Virus record (IMG/VR): IMGVR_UViG_3300048839_000230 | Coordinates: 1 to 23,882 of that record | DNA length: 23,882 bases | Source: a virus | Strand: one strand, 5' to 3' | Part shown: positions 302 through 23,458 of the stretch, in pieces | Layout of the letters: every line of letters begins with the position of its first letter | Position numbering within the stretch: position 1 is the first letter of the stretch | The notes under the pieces: generated by a model | Told to the model about the DNA's origin: nothing | Databases searched by the model: none | What the model saw: the letters and a program-made list of their open reading frames with translations, nothing else | Made by a program: the position numbers and the translations under genes

Positions 302-409
302 ACCTCTTATTAATACCCCGCAGTAAAATCCTCACCCGGCAAAAGACTGGAACTTGACAGACACACGACGACTTGACGAGCAAAAGAGCGCCACACCCGG
401 CGCTTTTTT
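302..409 (+). ncRNA. Candidate ~105-nt small RNA
   Basis: The interval between the predicted start near 302 and the intrinsic terminator at 387-409 contains no ATG and no credible open frame, so promoter and terminator bracket a possible non-coding transcript. ACTTGAC occurs twice inside it (about 351-357 and 371-377), and CCGGC is also repeated. The alternative is that this is only the 3' untranslated end of the 182-286 transcript. No known RNA family is recognised. Confidence 0.33.
387..409 (+). terminator. Rho-independent terminator
   Basis: AGCGCC (387-392), a 6-nt loop ACACCC and GGCGCT (399-404) form a GC-rich stem followed by a run of six T (404-409). It insulates the left genes from the promoter at 435-463. 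Confidence 0.8.
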
Positions 410-429
410 GTTGCTTGTTTGTTGTGCTA

Positions 430-455
430 ATATGTTGACAATATAAGCAACATAT
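430..455 (+). promoter_or_regulatory. Operator: inverted repeat over the -35 box
   Basis: ATATGTTG (430-437) and CAACATAT (448-455) are perfect inverted arms separated by 10 nt. The left arm overlaps the -35 box and the right arm lies in the promoter spacer, so a dimer bound here would exclude RNA polymerase. The same ATGTTG-N10-CAACAT arrangement overlaps the minus-strand promoter at 23415-23436. Confidence 0.6.
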
Positions 456-463
456 GCTATGCT
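435..463 (+). promoter_or_regulatory. Strong sigma70-like promoter
   Basis: TTGACA (435-440), 17-nt spacer, TATGCT (458-463). The -35 matches consensus exactly. Transcription should start near 470, giving a ~35-nt leader with AAGGAG (492-497) 7 nt before the ATG at 505. Confidence 0.75.
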
Positions 464-504
464 TATTTACATATTAGGCGGAACTAAGCACAAGGAGATT
501 TGAG

Positions 505-693
505 ATGATAAAACAAGAAAAGCAGTGCGCTAAGTGCAAGGCGCAAGGTTACAAAGTCGAGGCAACCGGGCTATTCGTTGGCAAGTTTTACAACTTTACG
601 TCGGAATCAGCGATGCCGTATCGTGGCTATTTGTGCGATATGCACGCAGATGAGGCCGAAAGCGGTAAATTTGTAAAGCAAAGAGCAGGGTAG
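505..693 (+). CDS. Small Cys-rich putative zinc-binding protein
   Basis: A 62-residue protein with its own strong promoter, AAGGAG at 7-nt spacing and a terminator downstream, so it is a monocistronic, probably highly transcribed gene. The N-terminus is lysine-rich and holds CAKC (residues 8-11); a second pair is in YLCDMH (residues 43-48). The C-x2-C plus C-x2-H spacing suggests one zinc-knuckle-like site on either side of an aromatic beta segment (LFVGKFYNFTSE). Family not recognised. The operator over its promoter implies repression under some condition. Possible roles include small regulator or host-takeover protein, but function is unknown. Confidence 0.75.
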   Translation: MIKQEKQCAKCKAQGYKVEATGLFVGKFYNFTSESAMPYRGYLCDMHADEAESGKFVKQRAG

Positions 694-3662: not shown

Positions 3663-5573
3663 ATGGCAACAATACAAAGCCTGGGCACAACGATAACGCA
3701 AAACGGGTGGGAGAGTTGGAATTATGCCCGGTCAGCGGTACGCATGTATGATAATTACAATCTAACCTATGCGGCGCTATACCGAGAGCAACCCAACGTT
3801 CGTACCTGTGTAGATTTTCTAGCCCGCAACATTGCCCAGCTTAACCTTCATTTCTTTCGCCGTCTTGACGAAACCGACCGCCAACGATTGACCGGCGCGC
3901 CGGTCGTGCAACTGCTTAACCGACCGTTACCGCCGCAATACAAGGTGACACGTTACCGACTATTCGAGGCCATCGTATCAGACCTGGGCGTGTATTTTAA
4001 TTCTTACTTGCTTAAGCTCAGGCAAAACGGCGAAACTGTTGGGCTGTTGCGTATTCCGCCGGAGTACATGGCAGTGGGCGGCGGGCTGATTACTACCGGC
4101 TATGAGGCAAACATAGGCGGGGTGCTGTACCAATTTGTCAATGATGAGATTATCCACTTTAAGGGCTATTCGCCCGAAAGCAGCATCCTCGGCTTGTCAC
4201 CGCTGGAAACATTGCGCCGGGTATTAGCTGAGGAAAACGCAATGGGGGAATATCGGGAGGGCTTTTGGAAAGCTGCCGCCCGTATTAGTGGCGTGATTCA
4301 CCGCCCAGCCAGCGCCCCATTGTGGAGCGAAGCCGCTCGTCAACGCTTTGCACTAGAGTTTCAAGAGCTTTACTCAGGCAACGCCAACAGCGGCAAGACG
4401 GCCATCCTGGAAGAGGATATGAAATGGGAGCCAAACTCATTCAACGCGCAAGAATCGGAATACCTCGGCGGGCGAAAATTGACGCGGGAAGAATGCGCCC
4501 GCGCCTACCATATCCCATTGCCGATGGTGGGTATTTTAGACAACGCCACATTTAGCAACATTCAGGAGCAGCATAAGCATTTATACCAAGACACATTGGG
4601 GCCAATACTGGCAATGATAGAGCAGGACATAGCCATGCAACTACTGCCTGACTTTGCCGATACGGACAACGTGTACTGCGAGTTTAATATCAATGAGAAA
4701 ATGCAGGGCGACTTTGCCGCGCAGACAAGCGCCATGCAAAGCGCCGTTGGTCGACCCTGGATGACTGCCGACGAAGCCCGCGCCCGTTTCAACATGCCCA
4801 TGCTGGGCGGTGACGCCGGGCAACTTGTCACGCCGCTTAATGTGCTAGTAGGCGGGCAAGCCTCACCTACCGACAGCGCACCACCGCCGAAGACGATAGA
4901 GGGCTATTACACCAAAGCAATCAGCACTTACAATGCAGGCATGGAAGCCAATTACCTACGCAAGTATGAAGATGTATTCACCCGGCACTACCAGCGGCAA
5001 GAGCGGGCATACAAAAGCGCAATGGGGGCAAAGGCAATGGTAGGCGATGCGTGGGTAGATAGTGAGCGCTGGAATCGGGAATTAACGGATGACCTTTTCA
5101 AGATTAACAATATGACCGCGTTGGCATGGGGCGAGATGGTGGCGTCCGAATTTGGCGCGGACGTATCAGAGAGCCGTATGCAACGCTGGCTACAACAGCA
5201 CAGCCGCATACAGGCGGAGCAGATTAACGCCTATACCGAGGAGCAATTGACCATTGCCGCCAACGACCCGGAGCCGGGCGAAGCCATTAACAAAGTATTC
5301 ACCGCCGCCTTGACGGTGTGGGCGCTCAGGCAAGCCCGCAGCGCCTTAACGACCGCCGTCAACTTTGGCAGCAACGAAGGTGCAAACGCGGCGGGCTTGC
5401 GGTCCAAAACGTGGCGCGTCAACAGCGCCAACCCACGTGACAGCCATGCTGCGCTAAACGGGGCGACGGTGGGCATACGGGAAAGATTCGCCAACGGGTT
5501 ACGCTGGCCGGGCGACCCGGACGGCAGTGCGGATGAGTTAGCCGGTTGCGATTGTACAATTACCTTTTCGTAG
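3663..5573 (+). CDS. Portal protein fused to MuF-like C-terminal domain
   Basis: A 636-residue protein. Residues 1 to about 400 are an HK97-family portal: NVRTCVDFLARNIAQLNL near the N-terminus, IIHFKGYSPESSILGLSPLETLR in the middle and a REECARAYHIPLPMVGILDNATFSNIQEQ segment. The portal dodecamer is the DNA entry channel and docks terminase and connector. After a linker (about 410-560) rich in charged helices, residues 580-636 match the Mu protein F-like minor head domain: TWRVNSANPRDSHAALNG, then WPGDPDGSADE and a terminal CDC. In most phages these are two genes; here one uninterrupted frame covers both. Start ATG 3663 has GGAG about 9 nt upstream. Confidence 0.88.
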   Translation: MATIQSLGTTITQNGWESWNYARSAVRMYDNYNLTYAALYREQPNVRTCVDFLARNIAQLNLHFFRRLDETDRQRLTGAPVVQLLNRPLPPQYKVTRYRLFEAIVSDLGVYFNSYLLKLRQNGETVGLLRIPPEYMAVGGGLITTGYEANIGGVLYQFVNDEIIHFKGYSPESSILGLSPLETLRRVLAEENAMGEYREGFWKAAARISGVIHRPASAPLWSEAARQRFALEFQELYSGNANSGKTAILEEDMKWEPNSFNAQESEYLGGRKLTREECARAYHIPLPMVGILDNATFSNIQEQHKHLYQDTLGPILAMIEQDIAMQLLPDFADTDNVYCEFNINEKMQGDFAAQTSAMQSAVGRPWMTADEARARFNMPMLGGDAGQLVTPLNVLVGGQASPTDSAPPPKTIEGYYTKAISTYNAGMEANYLRKYEDVFTRHYQRQERAYKSAMGAKAMVGDAWVDSERWNRELTDDLFKINNMTALAWGEMVASEFGADVSESRMQRWLQQHSRIQAEQINAYTEEQLTIAANDPEPGEAINKVFTAALTVWALRQARSALTTAVNFGSNEGANAAGLRSKTWRVNSANPRDSHAALNGATVGIRERFANGLRWPGDPDGSADELAGCDCTITFS

Positions 5574-7448: not shown

Positions 7449-9104
7449 ATGACCGCCGTCAATGTCATTTGCCGAAACCTAAATGATGACCGGGTAATAC
7501 CGCGATTCAGCCGCTACTTGGCGGAGCGTTTGGGCTGGACATTGACGGCGGTTCCTGTACCAGATGCGGAGCTTATCTACCTGAGCGGGTATTTTGAGCA
7601 TACGCAATTACCGACATGGCCCAAAGTGCCAGTGATGGCCTACTTTACGCACTACGAAACAGCGCCGCCCAACAATGCGAAGGCGGCGCTGTTTGACAAA
7701 CTAGCAAAGCGCGTCAACCTGCGGATTGCTACCGCGCCCATGTATGCCGATTACTTGCAAGGATTCGGCGATACGATACTAATCAATCCGCCGGTGGAGC
7801 GTGACAGATTTACCATTACCCAACGACCGCAACAAATGACCATCGGCTTATCAGGCTACACATACGCCAACGGCCGTAAAGGTGAGGGCATTGCCGCCGC
7901 GCTTGCCAAGTCAACAAGTAAAGAAGCGGTGTGGCAAGCCAGCGGGCGCGGGTGGAGCGTACCGACCCGCCGCTACGATTGGGCAGAGATGCCGAACTTT
8001 TACCAATCGCTTGACGTGCTACTCGTGACCGCAACAGTGGAAGGTGTGCCTATGCCGCCACTAGAGGCGCTATCGTGCGGCGTGTCGGTTGTCATTCCGC
8101 GCGGCGTTGGCCTGCTTGACACGTTGCCCGATTTACCGGGCATTCACCGATACGAGGCCGGGCACGTTGACGGTGCAGCAAGAGCGTTACAGGATGCCAT
8201 TGACGCCCGCGCCACTGTTGACCGAGCGGCGCTGCGGGATGCCACCGCACCGTACACAATAGAGGCATGGTGTGAAGGGCACGAGGAGGCGGTAGACATA
8301 CTAATGCAACAGCAACCCAAGCCAAGAGTGAAGGCAACCAAACCAAAAATAACGACCGACATTCGCGCCAATACGCGGGGGATTTATTGCGTAGCCTTTG
8401 GTGAGCAAGCGCGGGAATGCGCCGCCATCCTCATGGCAAGCGCCCGCCAATACCTGCCAGAAATACCCATAGCCCTATGCGCTGAAACGCCTATCGGCGG
8501 TGAAGATATTTTCATTAAGCAACCTGACGCCGATGTAGGGGGACGCCGCGCCAAACTAAAGGCTTATGAGCTTGCACCGGCGGAATGGGAGCAGGTGCTG
8601 TATCTTGACGCCGATACCGAGATTACCGGCGACATTCGATTCTACTTCGATTTGATTGCCGATGGGTGGGAATTTGTTATCTGCAAAGACCCGCACTTAA
8701 TGGACACCATGCAATCGTTTAAGCGAGCCAACAATATGGAAGAGTATCACATTACCGAAAACGAGATACACACCATGAATACGCTACAATTTAACGGCGG
8801 CGTGTGGGCATTTGGGCGCAATGAACGGGTAGCCGCATTTTTCAAGCGCTGGCAATCAGAGTGGGAGCGATACGCACAGCGCGATCAGGGCGCATTGATT
8901 CGGGCTATGTATACCGACCCGCTCAAAGTGTACGTGTTGGGCAACGAGTGGAATACATTTGAGAAATATAGCCGGGGCATCACAAGCGCCGGATTGCACC
9001 ACTACCCAGGCCGGGCGCGGCGCTGGAAAGGTTATCTGCCGGGGCGCATTGATAGCCAGGCGGCGTGGCAAATTGTAGAGCAACAAAAGGTAGGCAGGCG
9101 ATGA
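7449..9104 (+). CDS. Two-domain glycosyltransferase (GT-B + GT-A fusion)
   Basis: A 551-residue fusion of two sugar transferases. Residues 1 to ~290 look like a GT-B enzyme: a Rossmann-like start (VNVICRNLNDDRVIPRFSRYL), then EGVPMPPLEALSCG (198-211) with the E-x7-E motif of retaining GT4-type donors (E198, E206). A Lys/Pro-rich linker (~290-303) leads to a GT-A, GT8-like domain: RGIYCVAFGEQARECAAILM, VLYLDADTEITGD with the DxD metal/nucleotide-sugar site at 387-389, FNGGVWAFGRN, and RDQGALIRAMY. It lies between capsid and connector genes, starting 3 nt after the capsid stop, so virion proteins are the likely targets. That is inference; a cell-surface target is the alternative. Confidence 0.85.
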   Translation: MTAVNVICRNLNDDRVIPRFSRYLAERLGWTLTAVPVPDAELIYLSGYFEHTQLPTWPKVPVMAYFTHYETAPPNNAKAALFDKLAKRVNLRIATAPMYADYLQGFGDTILINPPVERDRFTITQRPQQMTIGLSGYTYANGRKGEGIAAALAKSTSKEAVWQASGRGWSVPTRRYDWAEMPNFYQSLDVLLVTATVEGVPMPPLEALSCGVSVVIPRGVGLLDTLPDLPGIHRYEAGHVDGAARALQDAIDARATVDRAALRDATAPYTIEAWCEGHEEAVDILMQQQPKPRVKATKPKITTDIRANTRGIYCVAFGEQARECAAILMASARQYLPEIPIALCAETPIGGEDIFIKQPDADVGGRRAKLKAYELAPAEWEQVLYLDADTEITGDIRFYFDLIADGWEFVICKDPHLMDTMQSFKRANNMEEYHITENEIHTMNTLQFNGGVWAFGRNERVAAFFKRWQSEWERYAQRDQGALIRAMYTDPLKVYVLGNEWNTFEKYSRGITSAGLHHYPGRARRWKGYLPGRIDSQAAWQIVEQQKVGRR

Positions 9105-9562
9105 CCGAGGCAGTGTTAAATATTGGATGCGGCAATCGCATTATTGACGGAGCGGTCAATCATGATCGTAGCAAACACCGCGAAGAGGTGGACGTGGTGC
9201 ATGACCTGAACGTCACGCCGTGGCCGTTTGAAAACGGTGCATTTGACAAGATTGTGGCGCTGGCGGTATTGGAACATTTAGACATTGATTTGTTCGCCTC
9301 ATTTGCTGAGTGCTGGCGGATTCTAAAGCCGGGCGGCGTGTTGGTCGTCAAGCTGCCATTGGTGACAGGTAGCAACGCCTACGATGACCCAAGTCATCGG
9401 TGGTTCTTTACGCTTAAGAGCCTTGACCAATTTTGTCCCGATACGCAACGCGGCAAGGATTACGGATTTTACACGCCGTACAAATGGCGCTACATTAAGC
9501 CGCCTGCACCCAACAATGCGGCTACATCGCTTTGGGCGACATTGGAGAAAATCACGCAATGA
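9101..9562 (+). CDS. SAM-dependent methyltransferase (class I, type 11-like)
   Basis: A 153-residue Rossmann methyltransferase. Visible motifs: AVLNIGCGNRIID (motif I, residues 4-16), VNHDRS (acidic strand 2 region), FDKIVALAVLEHLD (motif IV/post-I) and ILKPGGVLVVKLPLV (motif V/VI). These are typical of small-molecule or sugar-modifying type 11 enzymes. The end (GFYTPYKWRYIKPP) may form the acceptor site. An upstream in-frame start at 9065 exists, but ATG 9101 overlaps the glycosyltransferase stop (ATGA) and begins right before motif I, so it is preferred. Sitting between two GT-like genes, it most likely O-methylates the transferred sugar; that role is inferred. Confidence 0.85.
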   Translation: MTEAVLNIGCGNRIIDGAVNHDRSKHREEVDVVHDLNVTPWPFENGAFDKIVALAVLEHLDIDLFASFAECWRILKPGGVLVVKLPLVTGSNAYDDPSHRWFFTLKSLDQFCPDTQRGKDYGFYTPYKWRYIKPPAPNNAATSLWATLEKITQ

Positions 9563-13396: not shown

Positions 13397-15390
13397 CGGC
13401 TTTAGGCGAGGCGTATGTTGTCATACGGGCAACGACTGACAAGCTCGGCAAAGACCTGGCGGGCGCACGCGGCACGATTGACAAGGCGATGACCAGCATT
13501 GGCGGCGGCGTGCGCGGGCTGGGCGCGTTGGCATTGGGCGGAGCCGTTGCGGGCGTGGCTGCGGTGGGCACGGCGGCGGTTGTGGCGGGGGCACGATTGA
13601 TTAACCTTGCCAGTGATGCCGAGGAGATGCAAAGCAAATTCAACGTAGTCTTTGCCAATGTGGGCGGCGAGGTAAGCCAGCAACTAGACGAGTTTGCCTT
13701 ATCTGCCGGGCGCTCAAAATTTGAATTACGGGCAATGGCCTCCACATTTGGCGACACACTGAAGCCAATGGGATTCACCGAAAGCGCAGCGGGTGATTTG
13801 TCCGTCATGCTGTCCGAGCTTGCGGTTGACCTGGGCAGTTTCAACAACATGGAAACCGACGAAGCCTTGCAACGTTTGCAAGGCACGCTCATTGGCTCTC
13901 ATGAAAACGCGCTAGCGTTTGGCGTGATTATCAACGAAAACACACTAGCGGCAGAGATGGCGGCAAATGGGTGGGACGAGCTAACTGGCGCTGAATTAGA
14001 GCAAGCCAAAGTGCAGGCGCGGATTAACCTGCTGCTAAAGGGCACGACTGACGCGCAGGGCGATGCAATCCGCACGGCTGACGGCTGGGCAAACAGCACC
14101 CGTGCATTGACGGCGCGCTTTACCGATTTTGCGACCGAGCTTGGCATGAAACTGTTGCCCATTTTTACCCCCCTACTTGCCTTGATGATGAGTTTGGCGG
14201 AGCAGGCAATGCCCGCCATTACCGCCGCATTTGATTTGGCAATCCCGATCATTGACGGCATTGTTGATTCGGTGTCGCTATTTATCGAAGCGTTGAGCGC
14301 AGGCTATGACCCATTGACAGCATTTGGTCTGGCGTGGGGCACATTAGGCCGGGCGCTAGGACTGAGCAGTGAAACCATTGCCAATGTCCGCAATGGCGTA
14401 ACCGAGCTTGTGACGGCCGTCTCTGAATTCCTCGCGCCAATTATTGCGTGGGTACAGTCGAATATTGAGTTGAATGACGTGTTGATTGCACTAGGGCTGG
14501 CAATCGCCTCGGTGGTTGTGCCTGCTATCCTGTCTATCATCGCCGCCATCGCGCCGATTGTGTTGGCGTTTGTGGCGCTGGTTGGCGTTGTGGCATTGTT
14601 GCGCACGGCATGGGAGCAAAATTGGGGCGGCATACAGGAAAAGACGGCCGCCGTCATTGCTTTTATTGTGCCGCTTGTCAATGATGCAATCGCACGGATA
14701 CAGGCATTTTGGGCGGAGCATGGGCAAGCCATAAGCGACAACACCGGCAAGGTGTGGGATTTCATCGCGCAAATTATCACGGACATTTTTGACGTGATTG
14801 ACAGCCTTGTCAAAACCTTCACCGCATTATTCAAGGGCGATTGGGAGACATTCAACGAAGAAACGCTCAACATCTGGCGCGATTTGTGGGATTTGGTTGT
14901 CAATGTTTTGGAGGGGCTGTGGGATATGCTAAAGCCAGTATTCCAGAGCGTGTGGGACAGCCTGCGGGCATGGTGGGAAGGGATTGATTGGGCACAGTTG
15001 GGGCGCGATATTATCAGCGGCATTGTGGCCGGGATGCAAGCAGCAGGCGGGGCGATTGTCACATTTTTGCAAGGGCTAATGGATAGCGCTATAGACGGGC
15101 TGAAGGCCATGATGGGTATCTCGTCACCGTCCAAAGTGATGGCAGAGTCGATTGGTGCACCAATGGCCGAGGGCGTACTCATGGGCTGGGGCAACATCTT
15201 GTCTGGCACAGCGATGGATAACGCGCTCCAGATGGCGGTGCAGCCAATGGCAATGATGGCAATGGCAGACGATGCCGGGCCAATGCAAAACGTAACGTAC
15301 TCATCTACAACCACCGTCAACACAAGCGCAGACCCTGGGCGAGTGCTGCGGGCAAGCCGTCACCTTGACGCATTGGGGGCCATGCTATGA
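13393..15390 (+). CDS. Tail tape measure protein
   Basis: 665 residues. It opens with LGEAYVVIRATTDKLGKDLAGARGTIDKAM, a standard tape-measure N-terminus, then a Gly/Ala-rich hydrophobic run (about 38-65). Central helices follow (AGRSKFELRAMASTFGDTL, AVDLGSFNNMETDEALQRLQG). A strongly hydrophobic block at about 363-398 probably spans a membrane during DNA ejection. The C-terminus has repeated Trp-rich helices (IWRDLWDLVVNVLEGLWDML) and the common GISSPSKVMAESIGAPMAEG. At about 0.15 nm per residue the tail would be near 100 nm. It starts in a 4-nt overlap with the T frame. No lytic transglycosylase or peptidase domain is seen. Confidence 0.93.
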   Translation: MTALGEAYVVIRATTDKLGKDLAGARGTIDKAMTSIGGGVRGLGALALGGAVAGVAAVGTAAVVAGARLINLASDAEEMQSKFNVVFANVGGEVSQQLDEFALSAGRSKFELRAMASTFGDTLKPMGFTESAAGDLSVMLSELAVDLGSFNNMETDEALQRLQGTLIGSHENALAFGVIINENTLAAEMAANGWDELTGAELEQAKVQARINLLLKGTTDAQGDAIRTADGWANSTRALTARFTDFATELGMKLLPIFTPLLALMMSLAEQAMPAITAAFDLAIPIIDGIVDSVSLFIEALSAGYDPLTAFGLAWGTLGRALGLSSETIANVRNGVTELVTAVSEFLAPIIAWVQSNIELNDVLIALGLAIASVVVPAILSIIAAIAPIVLAFVALVGVVALLRTAWEQNWGGIQEKTAAVIAFIVPLVNDAIARIQAFWAEHGQAISDNTGKVWDFIAQIITDIFDVIDSLVKTFTALFKGDWETFNEETLNIWRDLWDLVVNVLEGLWDMLKPVFQSVWDSLRAWWEGIDWAQLGRDIISGIVAGMQAAGGAIVTFLQGLMDSAIDGLKAMMGISSPSKVMAESIGAPMAEGVLMGWGNILSGTAMDNALQMAVQPMAMMAMADDAGPMQNVTYSSTTTVNTSADPGRVLRASRHLDALGAML

Positions 15391-16328
15391 GTTGCGATTT
15401 GATAGGGTTGACAGCGGTAAGCGCTGGACAAACATACGATCTAAACGATGGGCACAACATCCGCTTGCTAGACTATGACCTTGGGCTGGCTGCGGGGCGA
15501 CGACTGACGCAGCGCTTTCCGGGGCAGTTTGGCGAGAGTGACCTGGGCGGCATTGTGGAGCCGCGCTTTCTGGACATTTTCTGGGCAACATGGGGCGACA
15601 ATAAAGCCGACTTTCGGACCGCTCGTGAGTTGTTTTTTGAGGTATTCCGGCTGCGCCAAACTGAGCCGGTGCAGCTCATTTTTGAGTTTGAGGACGGGCG
15701 CAGACGGGCAACCAACATTAACCTCGACGGGGCGCTGACACACACCGAAGCGGTTGGTAACTTTGAGCGGGTGAGCGGCACATTTCGCGCAGCTGATTGG
15801 CGGCTATATGACCCCACATTGCAGACCGTCACATTTGGTCTTATACCTGATTCCGGCGGCTTGCCCATTCCCTTCACCGTGCCGATACCCATCGGCGGCA
15901 GCGTGTTAAATGTCATCGAGACAATCAACTATGCCGGTGGCAGTCGGTTGGCGGCTGTGGAGTACCCCGTCATTGTCATCAATGGGCCAATCGAAAATCC
16001 CATCATTGAAAACATCACAACCAACGAGCAACTAGAATTCACCGCCAACGGCGGGCTTGTGCTGACAGTTGGTCAGTATGTGACCATTGACCTGTCCGGC
16101 TTTCCCCGCCGTGACGCCAAAACCATCCGCAACCAAGACGGCGACAGCGTGACACAGTACCTGAGTGTGGATAGCGACTTGGCGACGTGGCACCTATCAT
16201 TTGCCGGTGAGCGGCTTTATAATGGCACCTATAGCGACGGCAACAACGAGATACGCATATTGGGCGACAATGTGACGCTCCAATCTAGCGCAGAGATTCG
16301 GTATTACAACCGATATGAGGCGATATAA
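15387..16328 (+). CDS. Distal tail (Dit)-like protein
   Basis: 313 residues directly after the tape measure (ATGA overlap). The N-terminal half follows the siphovirus tail-family (Dit) pattern: DLNDGHNIRLLDYDLG, RFPGQFGESDLGG, then a long FWATWGDNKADFRTARELFFEVFRLR and a strand EPVQLIFEFEDGR. The C-terminal half (about 150-313) is a beta-rich domain with YPVIVINGPIENPIIENITTNEQ and LTVGQYVTIDLS, as in Dit galectin-like domains. The protein forms the hexameric ring between tube and tip and anchors receptor-binding parts. Confidence 0.82.
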   Translation: MSCDLIGLTAVSAGQTYDLNDGHNIRLLDYDLGLAAGRRLTQRFPGQFGESDLGGIVEPRFLDIFWATWGDNKADFRTARELFFEVFRLRQTEPVQLIFEFEDGRRRATNINLDGALTHTEAVGNFERVSGTFRAADWRLYDPTLQTVTFGLIPDSGGLPIPFTVPIPIGGSVLNVIETINYAGGSRLAAVEYPVIVINGPIENPIIENITTNEQLEFTANGGLVLTVGQYVTIDLSGFPRRDAKTIRNQDGDSVTQYLSVDSDLATWHLSFAGERLYNGTYSDGNNEIRILGDNVTLQSSAEIRYYNRYEAI

Positions 16329-16330
16329 TC

Positions 16331-17107
16331 ATGACGCAAAAATCACAATTTTGGTACACAGATGGATTCACCGGCGCGATTGGCGACGGCAGCGCACCGT
16401 ACACGCAGGAGGAATTCCGCGCCTACAACGGGGCGCTGTTGGGTGAGGGTGTGGTGGCGGGCGCTGATGATGAATTGGAAGTCAAAGGCGCGGCGTCACC
16501 GTTGACCGTCGAGGCGGGGCGGGCGCAAGTTAACGGATTCCACTATTGGAATGACGCGCAGGTATCCTTGGCAGTGACTACACCATCAATCGGCACAACC
16601 GGCGGGCGGGTGGTGTTGCGGGCGGACTTTACCGCCGCAACGGTGCGGGCGGCAATCATCACAAGCGCCGACGGCACGGCGGCTTACCCGGCGCTCACCC
16701 AAAGCGTGGGCGTGACATGGGAGATAAGTCTGGCAGGCTTCACAATTACAACCGGCGGCGTGATTACGCTGGAAGATGAGCGCGAGTTTGCCACCACAGC
16801 TTTGGCTGGGATTAAACTGGCAGGGCGACAAGGTGGCGACCCTGACGACTGGCTGATTGAAGGCACAACCGATTATGCCATTCCGGGCAATGTCATTATG
16901 CAAGTGGGGGCGATTGAGCAAGCGGCTGCTGCCAATGTGACCGTCACCTTTCCGGTGGAATTTATGAATACCCCGGCGGTATTCTTTCGGCACGTGGGCG
17001 CGGCTACGGTAAGTTTGGGCGCGGTGAATGGGGCGCAACTGCAATTTTTAGCATCAGGTGGAAATGTGGACTATGTGCAATGGATGGCGATAGGCATACG
17101 GCTATAA
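16331..17107 (+). CDS. Tail-tip / fibre protein, beta-rich
   Basis: 258 residues, two bases after the Dit-like gene. It starts with WYTDGFTGAIGDGSAPYTQEEFRAYN, followed by LEVKGAASPLTVEAGRAQVNGFHYW and a strand series (GGRVVLRADFTAATVRAAIIT), an arrangement common in N-terminal parts of tail-tip proteins of environmental siphoviruses. The C-terminus (VTVTFPVEFMNTPAVFFRHVG..., YVQWMAIG) resembles the H-type beta-sandwich of fibre tips. No enzymatic motif is seen. Likely a structural or receptor-binding component; the exact family is not named from sequence alone. Confidence 0.65.
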   Translation: MTQKSQFWYTDGFTGAIGDGSAPYTQEEFRAYNGALLGEGVVAGADDELEVKGAASPLTVEAGRAQVNGFHYWNDAQVSLAVTTPSIGTTGGRVVLRADFTAATVRAAIITSADGTAAYPALTQSVGVTWEISLAGFTITTGGVITLEDEREFATTALAGIKLAGRQGGDPDDWLIEGTTDYAIPGNVIMQVGAIEQAAAANVTVTFPVEFMNTPAVFFRHVGAATVSLGAVNGAQLQFLASGGNVDYVQWMAIGIRL

Positions 17108-17108
17108 G

Positions 17109-17336
17109 ATGATTGTCAGCAGGCGGACGTTTTTGCAAGGCATGGGCATTACCGGGGCGGCGCTATTTGCTAACCGCGCCGGTTTTGGCGTGCTTGTCAA
17201 TGCGTATCAAGTGCGCAGCAATAGCAGCGGGCGATTGATTACCATGCCGTTTGCCATTGCCGGGCGCGATACGCAGCCGGGCGCAAGCCAACCGCACCGG
17301 CTGTACGTGCCATTTGTGGGGGCGGGCCATGAGTGA
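17109..17336 (+). CDS. Small protein with Tat-type signal peptide
   Basis: 75 residues. The N-terminus VSRRTFLQ (residues 3-10) matches the twin-arginine S-R-R-x-F-L-x motif, followed by a hydrophobic span (GMGITGAALFANRAGFGVLV) and a mostly polar mature part (VRSNSSGRLITMPFAIAGRD...PHRLYVPFVGAGHE). No clear A-x-A cleavage site, so it might stay membrane-anchored or be uncleaved. It begins one base after the previous stop and overlaps the next gene by 8 nt (ATGAGTGA), so it is embedded in the tail operon. A folded, exported product is an unusual prediction for a phage tail locus. Function unknown. Confidence 0.6.
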   Translation: MIVSRRTFLQGMGITGAALFANRAGFGVLVNAYQVRSNSSGRLITMPFAIAGRDTQPGASQPHRLYVPFVGAGHE

Positions 17337-18507
17337 CACCGGGTGGGAATTACACTTGCGACATTACGACCGCGCCGGTACGCTGAAGAACGGCGTCATT
17401 TTCCCATTGACCGCACGCTATACCAACAGCCTCGACGCTGACGAGCCGCTGGTATTTACCCTCAACAGCGTGACCTATGCAGAGTATGCTGAGATTGTGG
17501 AGTATGACATTGTCGAAGTCATGGTGCGCAATCTATTTTTAGGCATCCAAACGGCGGATGGCGGATTCGTGCGGGATTTTGTGGGCATTGTGCGGGGGGA
17601 TGCACAGATGGAAACGACAGCCGACGGCATCACGCTCATGACATGGATTGCACCGGAGCAAAAGCATATCCTGTCATGGCGTAAGGTGCTATGGCCTGCG
17701 GGTGTGGCAGACCGCTCCACATTCACGGCTATACCGGCAGAAACGGCCGTTAAAAATCTGATTGCCTACAATTGCACAACAGCGGCAACTACTGCCAACG
17801 GACGTTGGCGGGCTGGTGATTTGGCGGCGGGCATGGGCATTACACTGGACATCGAAGCCGATAGCGCAGACGGTGACGCGGTGTCGCTATCGTTTGCCGG
17901 GGGTAGTTTGCTGGCGTCGTTGGCGCGGGTGTGCGAGTTGGGTGGCGATTACTACCACATCGAATGGCAGGGTGGTAGCTACGGCGGGGCGCATGAGTGG
18001 AGCGTGGTATGGGGGCGCGGTGACGACAAAAGCAGCGGGGGCGACCGGGTGCTGTTTAGCACATCCAACGGCACGCTACGGCAACCGCGCCGGGCGCACC
18101 AATACGCAACTGGCACAACGGCGGTGAGCGCTGGGCAGGGCGAGGGGACGGCACGGGCGGTGTTATTGGTTGACGGTGTGGACTATGCCGCTGACAATGA
18201 CATCGAGCTATTTGTGGACGCCAGAAACGCGGCGACGGCGGCACAGCGCGAAGGGCAAGCCGAGAGCCGATTGAACGAGACACGCCAACAAACTGCTTTC
18301 GGCTTCTCCATCCTGCAAACGAGCGACACCTTCTATTCGCCAATTGACGTAACCGGGCGGCGTACCTACCGCGTAGGTGACCGGGTGCTGAGTGATTACG
18401 GCGCAAACGACATCCTGCGCATACGGCGGGCTGTGGTGACATGGGCAGATGGCAACGGCGATTTGCTACAAGTGCAACTGGAAACCGAACTATGGGCAAC
18501 GATTTAG
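17329..18507 (+). CDS. Tail hub protein (Gp37-like / Tal N-terminal type)
   Basis: 392 residues from ATG 17329; an upstream in-frame start at 17251 would overlap the Tat-signal gene almost entirely and lacks support. It starts WELHLRHYDRAGTLKNGVIF and has the strand pattern of siphovirus Gp37-like tail hub proteins: LVFTLNSVTYAEYAEIVEYDIVEVMV, FVGIVRGDAQMETTADGITLM, a central AVKNLIAYNCT, YYHIEWQGG, and a C-terminal GRRTYRVGDRVLSDYGANDILRIRRA. This fits the trimeric hub that caps the tube end beneath the Dit ring. It overlaps the next gene by 16 nt. Confidence 0.75.
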   Translation: MSDTGWELHLRHYDRAGTLKNGVIFPLTARYTNSLDADEPLVFTLNSVTYAEYAEIVEYDIVEVMVRNLFLGIQTADGGFVRDFVGIVRGDAQMETTADGITLMTWIAPEQKHILSWRKVLWPAGVADRSTFTAIPAETAVKNLIAYNCTTAATTANGRWRAGDLAAGMGITLDIEADSADGDAVSLSFAGGSLLASLARVCELGGDYYHIEWQGGSYGGAHEWSVVWGRGDDKSSGGDRVLFSTSNGTLRQPRRAHQYATGTTAVSAGQGEGTARAVLLVDGVDYAADNDIELFVDARNAATAAQREGQAESRLNETRQQTAFGFSILQTSDTFYSPIDVTGRRTYRVGDRVLSDYGANDILRIRRAVVTWADGNGDLLQVQLETELWATI

Positions 18508-19787: not shown

Positions 19788-21401
19788 ATGCCAGACAGAG
19801 CGATAACAGGCACATTATACCGGCACAGCGGCGCGGAGTGGGATAACGCCAAATTGACATGGACGCTGCTAACCGACACGGCAACCCGACCGGGCGAGGC
19901 GTTGCCGGTGTGGAGCCGTGTCATTCGCACCGACGCAGATGGCGCAATTCCGGCGGGCTTTACGCTGGAAGTGCCCGATACCGGCGCTTGGCTATACCGG
20001 CTAAAAATTGAAAGTAACACAGCGCTAGACTTTTATCTGGAAGATGGCGCGGCGTTGATGATTGACGAGATTGTGACGCTTGCCGGGCAAGCTGGAAGTG
20101 AGGCCGGTACGCCTGCGGGTGAATTTCTACTAGACATTTATGACGGCGCACAAGACGCCGATGCCGGGCAAGTTTTGACGGCTGACGGGGCGGGAAGTGC
20201 GTCATGGGAGGACGCGGCTGCTGGCGGCATCCCGCTCATCTCCCCTGCGGTAGCGGGCAACCTTGTTGTGCAATCGGCGGGCGGGGAGTTGGAGGATGGC
20301 GGCATCTCCGTGGGGACGGCGACGACGGGCGCAGCTTTTGGAGATTCCTCTGTAACCACAACCGGGGGGGCGATGGGAAGCGGAGCGGCTACGGAATCTG
20401 GGGGGGCAATTGGGGCGGCGGCGGAATCGGTGACGGGCGGCGCGGTTGGGGCGGATGCTATAACAACAACGGGCGGAGCGGTTGGAACGTCTGCGAATGC
20501 CACAACGGGTGGAGCGGTTGGGACAGGTGCAAGAGCAACGAGCGGGTTTTCTGGCGGATCTGGAGCGGTCGGCACAGCAGATAATATCCAACTCGGCACG
20601 GGCGAAAATAACACCGCCAGCACCTTGCAGGTGTATGGTAATCAACTACTCGACGCAAGCGGCAATATACCGGCGGGGCGGATGACCGCCAATCTGGGTA
20701 CGGCGGCGGTATTGGACGCAGGCACAACCGGCGCGGATTTGGTGGAGGCGGAGACGGTTGACGATGCGCGGGATGTGTTGGGGCTGGCGGCGCTGGATTT
20801 GCCGGGATATTACTCCGATCATCGCCAATTTGTGTATAGCGCCGCAGATGTGGTAAGCGGCGGCAATGTGACGCGCGGCGCGTCTAATGTGGTGCTATTG
20901 CAATCTACCGCAACCGCAGGGGGGCGGGTGCGGGCATACGTAAACAGTACCGGGTTGTTATTAAATGAGACGGGGCGATTTGTCAGTTGGGATAAGCGAA
21001 TTACTTTTGGGGTGACAGTGCAGCGGTTGACGACATCGGCAACCGGATATTGTAACGTATTTTTCGGCCGTGAATCATCCGAGGCGTTTGGCTCGTTTGC
21101 TGGTAATTTTGTGGGTTTCGGGACACTAAACGGCCGGATTGTGGCATTGTACGCAGCGCGGGCGAGTGCGCTGACAACAATCGCGGTGTCCTCGGCATTG
21201 ATTACATCTTCGCCCCGCGCAACCATCCATATTGCTTCCGATAATGGCACGGTGAATTGGTATTTTAATGGGGTACTTTTGGGCAGTACAGCCGCCGGGC
21301 CAAATTTGACAGAGGCAGCCGGAACCATATCAATGGACATTAGCAACGGGGGCACGGCCACCAATGAATATTGGGTTTTGAGCAGTTGGAGCCAGGGATA
21401 A
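19788..21401 (+). CDS. Tail fibre with dodecapeptide repeats and C-terminal lectin-like domain
   Basis: 537 residues. GGAGG precedes ATG 19788. Residues 1-95 form a beta-sandwich-like head (ALPVWSRVIRTDADGAIPAGF, WLYRLKIESNTALDFYLEDG). Residues 179-250 carry six 12-residue repeats with consensus TTGGAVGxxAxx, comparable to YadA-type head repeats that form trimeric left-handed beta-rolls. A segment IQLGTGENNTASTLQVYG follows, familiar from fibre proteins of Firmicutes phages. The C-terminal ~180 residues look LamG/concanavalin-like (KRITFGVTVQRL, VNWYFNGVLLGS). A trimeric receptor-binding fibre is the best reading. Confidence 0.78.
   Translation: MPDRAITGTLYRHSGAEWDNAKLTWTLLTDTATRPGEALPVWSRVIRTDADGAIPAGFTLEVPDTGAWLYRLKIESNTALDFYLEDGAALMIDEIVTLAGQAGSEAGTPAGEFLLDIYDGAQDADAGQVLTADGAGSASWEDAAAGGIPLISPAVAGNLVVQSAGGELEDGGISVGTATTGAAFGDSSVTTTGGAMGSGAATESGGAIGAAAESVTGGAVGADAITTTGGAVGTSANATTGGAVGTGARATSGFSGGSGAVGTADNIQLGTGENNTASTLQVYGNQLLDASGNIPAGRMTANLGTAAVLDAGTTGADLVEAETVDDARDVLGLAALDLPGYYSDHRQFVYSAADVVSGGNVTRGASNVVLLQSTATAGGRVRAYVNSTGLLLNETGRFVSWDKRITFGVTVQRLTTSATGYCNVFFGRESSEAFGSFAGNFVGFGTLNGRIVALYAARASALTTIAVSSALITSSPRATIHIASDNGTVNWYFNGVLLGSTAAGPNLTEAAGTISMDISNGGTATNEYWVLSSWSQG
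20322..20537 (+). repeat. Six 36-nt in-frame repeats in the fibre gene
   Basis: Six tandem 36-nt units encode TTGAAFGDSSVT, TTGGAMGSGAAT, ESGGAIGAAAES, VTGGAVGADAIT, TTGGAVGTSANA and TTGGAVGTGARA. Protein similarity is high, while DNA similarity is moderate (GGCGGAGCGGTTGG-like core), with the last two or three units most alike. G-runs of up to eight occur in units 2 and 3 (about 20366-20373 and 20401-20407). Confidence 0.8.
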
Positions 21402-21413
21402 GGAGGCAACTAT

Positions 21414-21752
21414 ATGGATGATCAACAAATGGCCCTAGTCAAACGATACGCAGATGCAGAGCGAGAAACGCGGGCGGCAATGGGGCGGGTTTATAATGCG
21501 ATAGTGAAGGCGTTGGCGCTGGAGGCTGTTATGGGGCAACGGGTAAGCGGCGGCGACCTGGCAGACATGGCTGATTACCATGCAGCCAACCTTGCCAAAC
21601 TGGGCGGGGCGGATGTGTCTATTCGGCAATTGGCGGGCGGGCTTGTGGCCACAATCGAAGCGGTGCAATTGGCGGGGCTGGCACAGGGCATCAATATTTT
21701 CCCCGGCGTCAATGTGACGTTACCGGCGGAGGGGGGCGACGATGAACGCTAA
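21414..21752 (+). CDS. Small helical protein of unknown function
   Basis: 112 residues. AAGGAGG precedes the ATG at 21414. The chain is mostly alpha-helical and Ala-rich (AERETRAAMGRVYNAIVKALALEAVMG, DLADMADYHAANLAKLGG, SIRQLAGGLVATIEAVQLAGLAQG), ending in FPGVNVTLPAEGGDDER. No membrane helix stands out. It lies between fibre and holin-like genes, overlapping the latter by 11 nt. It may be a fibre-assembly chaperone or a lysis regulator; the family is not recognised. Confidence 0.65.
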   Translation: MDDQQMALVKRYADAERETRAAMGRVYNAIVKALALEAVMGQRVSGGDLADMADYHAANLAKLGGADVSIRQLAGGLVATIEAVQLAGLAQGINIFPGVNVTLPAEGGDDER

Positions 21753-21972
21753 AGAAAAAATCAAAAATGAGCCGGTCATGACGGCGGCCGGTGGCACATC
21801 GGCAACGGTGTTGGCGGTGTTTGCGCTGCTGAGTGCGTTTGGCGTCAACGTAGCGCCGGAGGTACAGGCGGCGGTGATTACATTGGCGGCGGTGATTTTG
21901 CCTCCGCTTTACGGTTGGCTTGCGCGGCAACGGGTAACGCCGGTGCGAAAATTGGAGCAGCATACCGAGTGA
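21742..21972 (+). CDS. Two-span holin-like membrane protein
   Basis: 76 residues. A short charged N-terminus (MNAKEKIKNEP) leads into two hydrophobic spans, about residues 15-36 (GGTSATVLAVFALLSAFGV) and 41-61 (VQAAVITLAAVILPPLYGWL), with a turn between them, and a basic C-terminus (RQRVTPVRKLEQHTE). This is the size and topology of class II holins. Its position at the end of the tail operon, shortly before an endolysin candidate, supports the role. Evidence is topology and context only. Confidence 0.65.
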   Translation: MNAKEKIKNEPVMTAAGGTSATVLAVFALLSAFGVNVAPEVQAAVITLAAVILPPLYGWLARQRVTPVRKLEQHTE

Positions 21973-22247
21973 CGCGAGAGATGATCCAATTCTTAACGCT
22001 GGCTGTAACGCTGGTGAATATGGGCATTCTCGTCATCATGGCACGTCAACGGGTATTGGCATGGCGCTATGCAGTGCTGCCCATGATGCTATTGGCACAG
22101 CTATGCGCTTTTTACGTGTACGTGATGATTGTCAGCCGCCCCCCGTCCGAAACCACTACCACATGGAGCGCAATTTTACGCCTGCAAACGCTATCGGCGC
22201 TGACCATCGTCTTGCTCGCCTATTGGAGAACGCACCGCCATGGATAA
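21969..22247 (+). CDS. Three-span small membrane protein
   Basis: 92 residues from GTG 21969, which overlaps the holin-like stop by 4 nt (GTGA); an ATG at 21981 is the alternative start. Three hydrophobic spans are visible: IQFLTLAVTLVNMGILVIMA, YAVLPMMLLAQLCAFYVYVMIV and SAILRLQTLSALTIVLLAYW, with a Thr/Pro-rich loop between spans 2 and 3. The three-span form resembles class I holins or antiholins. Together with the gene before it, it may form a holin-antiholin pair. Confidence 0.6.
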   Translation: MTREMIQFLTLAVTLVNMGILVIMARQRVLAWRYAVLPMMLLAQLCAFYVYVMIVSRPPSETTTTWSAILRLQTLSALTIVLLAYWRTHRHG

Positions 22248-22563
22248 CGCGGCCATCATCATTGCCACAATAAGCGCGGTGACAACCCTTGCCGGGGGCG
22301 GTATTGTGGCATGGCAACAGCTACGCAAAGATAAAGGGCAAATGTCCGTTGACATGGAACGGCTGAAAGAAGAAGCCGAGCGGGAATTGTGGGGGCGCGT
22401 CAATGCGCAGCTTGTGGTTATGCGGCAACGGCTGGATGCACAAGACCAGACGATAGCGGAGCAGGGTGTGGTGATCATGCAATTGCGGGGGCGGGTGACA
22501 ATGCTGGAGCAGGAAAACGCGCGGTTGCGGGATGAGAATGAGCGGTTGCGGGGCGGGAAGTAG
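22240..22563 (+). CDS. Membrane-anchored coiled-coil protein, possible spanin or lysis accessory
   Basis: 107 residues starting in an 8-nt overlap with the previous gene. One N-terminal hydrophobic span (NAAIIIATISAVTTLAGGGIVAWQQL, about residues 3-28) is followed by a long charged coiled coil (about 40-107) with regular hydrophobic heptads (RLDAQDQTIAEQGVVIMQLRG, MLEQENARLRDENERLRGG). The layout is Rz-like (i-spanin), or that of a XhlA-type holin-associated protein. No lipobox partner is seen nearby, so the spanin reading is tentative. The transcript ends just after at the terminator 22570-22597. Confidence 0.6.
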   Translation: MDNAAIIIATISAVTTLAGGGIVAWQQLRKDKGQMSVDMERLKEEAERELWGRVNAQLVVMRQRLDAQDQTIAEQGVVIMQLRGRVTMLEQENARLRDENERLRGGK

Positions 22564-22569
22564 GCAACA

Positions 22570-22597
22570 AAAAAGCCACCATAACCGGTGGCTTTTT
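22570..22597 (+). terminator. Bidirectional terminator ending the late operon
   Basis: AAAAAGCCACC (22570-22580) and GGTGGCTTTTT (22587-22597) form a GC stem flanked by A- and T-runs, usable in both directions. It is preceded by TAGGCAAC, repeated before the next terminator. Confidence 0.85.
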
Positions 22598-22709
22598 ATC
22601 TGCTGCTCAGGGCGGCTTATGCGGCGGATTCCTCCGGCCATGTGTTGCATTGGGATAGAGCGCCGCTTTTGACGGAACCGAATAGGTGGTGTAATTTTGA
22701 GTAGGCAAC

Positions 22710-22739
22710 AAAAAGACCGCCTGTATGGGCGGTCTTTTT
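22710..22739 (-). terminator. Bidirectional terminator, ends the minus-strand operon
   Basis: AAAAAGACCGCC (22710-22721) pairs with GGCGGTCTTTTT (22728-22739). A-run on one side and T-run on the other allow termination of both the plus-strand late transcript and the convergent minus-strand genes. The 13-nt sequence TAGGCAACAAAAA precedes both this terminator (22702) and the one at 22570. Confidence 0.85.
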
Positions 22740-22760
22740 ATTTATGGAGGGGGAAATAGA

Positions 22761-23039
22761 TTATTTCAAAATCACGCTTTGGAAGCGCTTTCCTTTCATT
22801 CCCTTTGGCATGGCGATCTCTCCATTTACATACTCTATTTTCCCATCCGCCTTCATCTCCTTCATCGCCCGACCGACAATTTGGTCAAGCTCTTTCCAGT
22901 CGTGATGGCGATCATATCCCCATTGTGTCCATGTATTCAAAACGACCTTTTCGGGGCTGGTATGCCCTGAACTTCCGGCGGATTTTACAGACCGGATAAT
23001 GATTTCTTTCGCAGATTCTAGCAACTGATTTTCGTTCAT
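22761..23039 (-). CDS. Small unknown protein, minus strand
   Basis: 92 residues. AGGAG (23050-23046) sits 6 nt before the ATG at 23039. The product is helical at both ends: NENQLLESAKEIIIRSVKSA at the N-terminus, KELDQIVGRAMKEMKADG in the middle, followed by a short beta pair (KIEYVNGEIAMP) and a basic tail (KGMKGKRFQSVILK). Helices plus a beta wing and a basic surface could be a winged-helix fold, but this is a guess. Second gene of the minus-strand pair driven from 23433-23405; it ends at the terminator above. Confidence 0.7.
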   Translation of the reverse strand: MNENQLLESAKEIIIRSVKSAGSSGHTSPEKVVLNTWTQWGYDRHHDWKELDQIVGRAMKEMKADGKIEYVNGEIAMPKGMKGKRFQSVILK

Positions 23040-23060
23040 TGTATTCTCCTGTGCCGGTAT

Positions 23061-23162
23061 CCCGGCTTTCGCTGGTTGATAATCGCCGAGGGCGATTCTT
23101 TCGCCGTTAGCGGTCGCGGTAGCGTCCTTTGGCGTGGATGGCTATTTATTCCCGGCTTTCGC
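23061..23162. repeat. Pair of 12-bp direct repeats
   Basis: CCCGGCTTTCGC occurs at 23061-23072 and 23151-23162, 90 bp apart, flanking the 106-nt gap between the two minus-strand genes. The gap also holds a 7-bp hairpin (AATCGCC/GGCGATT, about 23083-23099). No gene is seen in it. Confidence 0.5.
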
Positions 23163-23361: not shown

Positions 23362-23404
23362 TTTCCTATCTCCTTGCGTTAATTTTTCCTCGGCTGATGA
23401 ATAC

Positions 23405-23433
23405 AGTGTAGCTTATGTTGCCGCAACTGTCAA
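23405..23433 (-). promoter_or_regulatory. Strong sigma70-like promoter for the minus-strand pair
   Basis: Read on the minus strand: TTGACA (23433-23428), 17-nt spacer, TACACT (23410-23405). Transcription should start near 23398, giving a ~37-nt leader before the ATG at 23361. Confidence 0.72.
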
Positions 23434-23436
23434 CAT
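23415..23436 (-). promoter_or_regulatory. Operator: ATGTTG-N10-CAACAT
   Basis: ATGTTG (23415-23420) and CAACAT (23431-23436) are inverted arms with a 10-nt spacer, overlapping the minus-strand -35 box. Arm sequence, spacing and placement relative to the TTGACA box are the same as at 432-453. A second overlapping palindrome CAACATGTTG spans 23431-23440. Confidence 0.6.
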
Positions 23437-23458
23437 GTTGGCAGGGGCAATTTGTGAA

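Follow-up and report, generated by a model that had tools for sequence, protein, structure and literature searches.

Phage morons are accessory units that bring a promoter and a terminator of their own and are as a rule expressed from the prophage. In the lambda-type CI/Cro switch of temperate siphophages, which employs XRE HTH repressors, a dyad spans the −35 box of a sigma-70 promoter together with its spacer. The use of one phage repressor to switch separate units together is an already known style of phage control. In the Cluster A mycobacteriophages (L5) one repressor is matched by dispersed operators or stoperators, some of which are true operators within promoters (PMC6550527). These phages carry 20–30 such sites, which have a 13-bp core, are oriented with transcription and mostly lie away from promoters (PMC6550527). 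Our searches of the literature on dispersed phage operators turned up no closer parallel than L5.

The DNA analysed here, referred to as the window, is an entire IMG/VR record of 23,882 bases, classed as linear, from which the early region is missing. It carries the inverted repeat ATGTTG-N10-CAACAT at two predicted promoters. Both copies are, as in a CI-type phage operator, two-fold symmetric sites overlapping a promoter, and as in the lambda-type switch the dyad lies over the sigma-70 −35 box and spacer. The same operator–promoter pattern is also found at a divergent HTH_3/S24 and HTH gene pair in contig L274, to which we return below. In the lambda switch the sites cluster between repressor and cro, whereas those here are single copies at two accessory units separated by 23 kb; the window itself has no repressor gene. 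The arrangement also differs from that of L5, in that the window has only two symmetric sites, both located at promoters, and thus shows no L5-type distribution. The units are moron-like in being small and having their own promoters, and the right one sits on the opposite strand among late genes with a likely terminator of its own. In contrast to the usual prophage expression of morons, the putative operator would suggest repression.

Matching dyads at two predicted promoters

The features at the two sites, from left to right, are as follows.

379–412, plus strand: predicted intrinsic terminator, 14-pair stem and T run, just upstream of the left operator–promoter
430–455, no strand: putative left operator dyad, core ATGTTG-N10-CAACAT at 432–453, arms of 8 bp (ATATGTTG/CAACATAT)
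435–463, plus strand: predicted left sigma-70-type promoter, TTGACA at 435–440, 17-nt spacer, TATGCT at 458–463, TG before the −10 box
491–499, plus strand: left ribosome-binding site, CAAGGAGAT
505–693, plus strand: Cys-containing ORF of 62 aa, CxxC...CxxxH, no family match
22710–22739, minus strand: hairpin with T runs flanking both sides, likely terminator of the R71–R92 unit, read from the sequence
22761–23039, minus strand: R92, 92 aa, predicted winged-helix-like fold, 85% identical homologue in contig G349
23146–23361, minus strand: R71, 71 aa, directly downstream of the right promoter
23368–23376, minus strand: right ribosome-binding site, CAAGGAGAT
23405–23433, minus strand: predicted right sigma-70-type promoter, TTGACA at 23433–23428, 17-nt spacer, TACACT at 23410–23405
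23415–23436, no strand: putative right operator dyad, ATGTTG-N10-CAACAT
23431–23440, no strand: 10-bp perfect palindrome CAACATGTTG, overlapping the right dyad and giving an extra half-site there, read from the sequence
23516 to the contig end, plus strand: right-end ORF, running off the end

An exact-match scan of the 23,882-base contig located ATGTTG-N10-CAACAT exactly twice, at 432–453 and 23415–23436. The contig gene map places both copies in noncoding DNA, each in a short intergenic gap. The earlier note had proposed the same operator at two distant promoters and had named many copies within coding regions as a finding that would speak against it; the dyad is exact at both places, there is no further exact match in the contig, and neither copy is coding. 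The details given in that note also hold on recheck: the arms are identical between the two dyads (12/12) and form perfect inverted repeats in both, the N10 spacing and the register to TTGACA are shared, and the spacer sequences differ.

ATGTTG-N10-CAACAT is the sole dyad with 6-bp arms (spacer 0–14) that is repeated in the contig. A repeated dyad of some kind arose in 110 of 400 dinucleotide shuffles, which would allow for two random inverted repeats matching at two promoters by chance; the TTG of the arm moreover belongs to the −35 box, and the common register is therefore partly built in. With the gene map held fixed, however, 0 of 400 shuffles yielded a repeated dyad of which neither copy was coding, even before an identical promoter register is required; the noncoding DNA of the contig comprises only 958 bases by our own gene map. 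We regard chance as highly improbable. The two operator-like dyads form a pair that is real and not random. When up to three mismatches are allowed, the matches (22 observed, 11.4 expected in the contig) are mostly intragenic and are uninformative.

Both dyads begin three bases 5′ of a perfect TTGACA, giving the near-consensus sigma-70 pattern ATG-TTGACA-N17-TANNCT. The −10 boxes, TATGCT (left) and TACACT (right), each match at four of six positions. Overlap of the dyad with the −35 box, as previously described, is seen at both predicted promoters in the same register. The similarity extends further downstream: the two start regions can be aligned across about 96 nt, their leaders are 51 nt and 53 nt long, and within the contig CAAGGAGAT is confined to these two starts. 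Similarity of the leaders only was equalled in 26 of 2000 shuffles. The alignment, the leaders and the exclusive CAAGGAGAT are consistent with both promoters being copies of one ancestral promoter–leader cassette, in which case the dyad may be a remnant or belong to an extended promoter, with no need for a shared regulator today. The arms have nevertheless stayed identical though the inner spacer and the leader have diverged, which argues for selection on the arms; we thus consider descent from a cassette to be an unlikely account of the sites.

The late operon and the small-gene units

The late operon occupies the plus strand from an HNH endonuclease gene (849; family match) to 22563 and includes the terminase large subunit gene and genes of structural type; several of the gene names within it are our own reading of the ORF list and not family matches. 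By ORF reading, glycosyltransferase-like (7449–9104) and methyltransferase-like (9065–9562) genes are found inside the structural operon. A 75-aa ORF in the tail gene region (17109–17336) has an N-terminal twin-arginine signal (TIGR01409, above cut-off), which is unusual for a phage structural region. The earlier placement of the small-gene units at both edges of the late operon holds only approximately, as the right unit sits between the late operon and the ORF that runs from 23516 to the contig end. No relatives of this right-end ORF were found in viral contigs or phage records; a proposed kinship with a lysin-like protein of G349 was dropped (E 0.38).

In the left unit, the 62-aa protein has no relatives in viral contigs or among 298–396 genomes of the presumed host class. 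Its three Cys and one nearby His do form a CxxC...CxxxH arrangement; the description ‘Cys-rich’ is a weak label for it. A second promoter-like site, TTGACG-N17-TAAAAT, lies at 267–295 and the strong terminator at 379–412 follows about 85 nt later. To judge from these elements, the stretch 267–412, which precedes the left operator, could possibly specify a short untranslated RNA. The candidate RNA has no Rfam match, and tRNA and Rfam scans of the whole 23,882-base window were empty.

The right unit comprises two minus-strand genes (23361–22761) read from the promoter at 23433. No relatives of R71 were found in viral contigs, phage records or the 298–396 class genomes, and a structure search with R71 gave nothing significant. 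R92 is likewise without relatives in phage records or the 298–396 class genomes, and its gene is found in two contigs, G348 and G349. Positions 14681–17513 of G348 are 99% identical to 20229–23061 of the window, a stretch that holds tail-end and lysis-side genes and R92; the G348 contig itself stops short of the dyad. G348 has no similarity to the window elsewhere, and the shared stretch is, as the two sequences are read, a recent module exchange between phages. In G349 (65.5 kb) only R92 and its flanks are common to the window, and R92 there is under a different promoter.

The single-sequence AlphaFold model of R92 has the order helix-helix-helix-strand-strand with a mean pLDDT of 76. A structure search with R92 returned many winged-helix domains, none of them significant (best E 0.03). 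Such a predicted fold, together with the fact that autoregulation is common, would fit R92 as a dimeric regulator of its own unit and of the left gene. Set against this, no structure match reaches an E below 0.03, and the 65.5-kb G349 record, which has the 85% identical homologue behind its other promoter, lacks the dyad even when one mismatch is allowed. The predicted recognition helix of the G349 homologue differs at several positions, thus the G349 case against R92 is not conclusive. A regulatory role for R92 at the two dyads seems to us improbable.

Host, lifestyle and conservation in relatives

No DNA-level match to the window was found among phage records. For the terminase, identity is 67% with a counterpart in L085, a contig of a Chloroflexi MAG, and 54% with that of an Anaerolineaceae MAG; from these identities the host of the phage is likely to belong to the Chloroflexota. 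Tyrosine integrases are present in the related contigs G002, G003, G005 and G009, in other relatives and in L085. The late operon is preceded by further genes in L085 and G002, and the integrase is found a short way upstream of these. The integrases of the relatives make a temperate lifestyle likely for the phage group; the 23,882-base window itself contains none.

The paired intergenic dyad is absent from 80 related-terminase loci and from 48 full related records. The relatives, at 52–70% terminase identity, are without the paired dyad and also without both small-gene units; since the 48 records lack the small genes, their missing paired dyad is no test of the operator. Among these 48 records the core TGTTG-N10-CAACA is found only in G036 and G039, in one copy each, and in G039 without the outer T. 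The equivalent promoter in L085, which follows a terminator and precedes small genes, HNH and terminase, begins ATGTTGACA and overlaps ATGTTA-N7-TAACAT, a related dyad with different spacing. As a counterpart of the operator in the window, this putative L085 site is suggestive only.

Other elements were observed at promoters of the relatives. In G002 (about 14207), G003 (about 33326) and G005 (about 4998), a promoter lying between the late operon and the integrase side has ACAGAATAAATGTGCTA around its spacer and −10 box, followed by a hairpin-forming stretch. These sites may represent a conserved promoter that is associated with a small RNA. In G003, two ATACTAGCTAGTAT 14-bp palindromes, 24 bp apart (24488–24525), lie over the promoter of small minus-strand genes and are operator-like.

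The operator–promoter pattern elsewhere and a proposed repressor

When the −10 box is included, the pattern ATGTTGACA-N7-CAACAT-N4-TANNNT has 11 matches in viral contigs. The match in L274 falls in a divergent switch of the cI/cro kind, where it lies over the promoter that serves a 75-aa HTH gene, divergent from a 216-aa HTH_3 + Peptidase_S24 repressor gene. The match in L154 precedes a 126-aa HTH_3 gene, with an integrase less than 1 kb away. The remaining matches fall within coding sequence or next to unrelated genes. L274 and L154 are phages unrelated to the window and were chosen post hoc among the 11; they thus support a kind of regulator and do not identify it. The looser pattern ATGTTGACA-N7-CAACAT gave, among the matches listed for viral contigs, mostly coding, chance-like sites, and the tighter pattern with ANGCTA appended gave no match.

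Host genomes bear on a further possibility, that the sites are bound by a transcription factor of the host, which would couple the units to host physiology. Of the 396 genomes available from the presumed host class (that of the L085 source genome), 85 contain the bare dyad, mostly in single copy, which we estimate to be about the rate for 12 fixed bases. Exact dyads number between one and three in some Chloroflexota genomes, and across the class genomes the dyad is commoner than a reversed control when judged by eye, as a host factor would lead one to expect. That the overall frequency is close to chance speaks against it, and the two MAGs in which the nearest relatives are integrated or binned have no copy. 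The operator–promoter pattern is found in none of the 396 class genomes, which argues against a conserved host regulon. We therefore hold such a regulon to be unlikely, and give a host factor little credence as the agent at the two sites.

On balance we think it probable, if not by a wide measure, that both sites are operators of one dimeric HTH phage repressor, encoded in the early region, that would co-repress the two small units. As the closest relatives carry tyrosine integrases, a lysogeny repressor is to be expected. The earlier note had argued for a single dimeric regulator; one class of site in the same register makes this the simplest cause, while no regulator gene was found in the 23,882-base contig. 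The scheme that we infer, which extends to the repressor and its family, its binding, repression, the direction of control and the timing, would be as follows. The repressor is most likely XRE/CI-like, its gene lying in the early region that is missing from the contig. A dimer would engage half-sites set 16 bp from each other, or roughly one and a half turns of the helix, and, once bound, would cover the −35 box and spacer at both promoters, thereby excluding RNA polymerase. Loss of the repressor, at prophage induction or in early infection, would then turn on the Cys gene and the R71–R92 unit together. A wider reading, that an immunity repressor runs accessory units flanking the late operon to left and right, such that units and lysogeny form one dispersed regulon, is tentative and to our mind rather doubtful.

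To our knowledge, no repressor has been characterised for this phage group. If one shared repressor does act at the two dyads, the sites would provide a concrete operator for a phage group that is probably of the Chloroflexota, and two small-gene units would be tied to the lysis–lysogeny decision. The dyad would also provide a motif by which the early-region contig, missing here, could be spotted in the same metagenome. We note that L184, a contig of an unrelated phage, has two intergenic copies of the operator-like ATGTTGACACCGCCGTCAACAT with the same arms, at 4361–4382 and 5181–5202, 820 bp apart.
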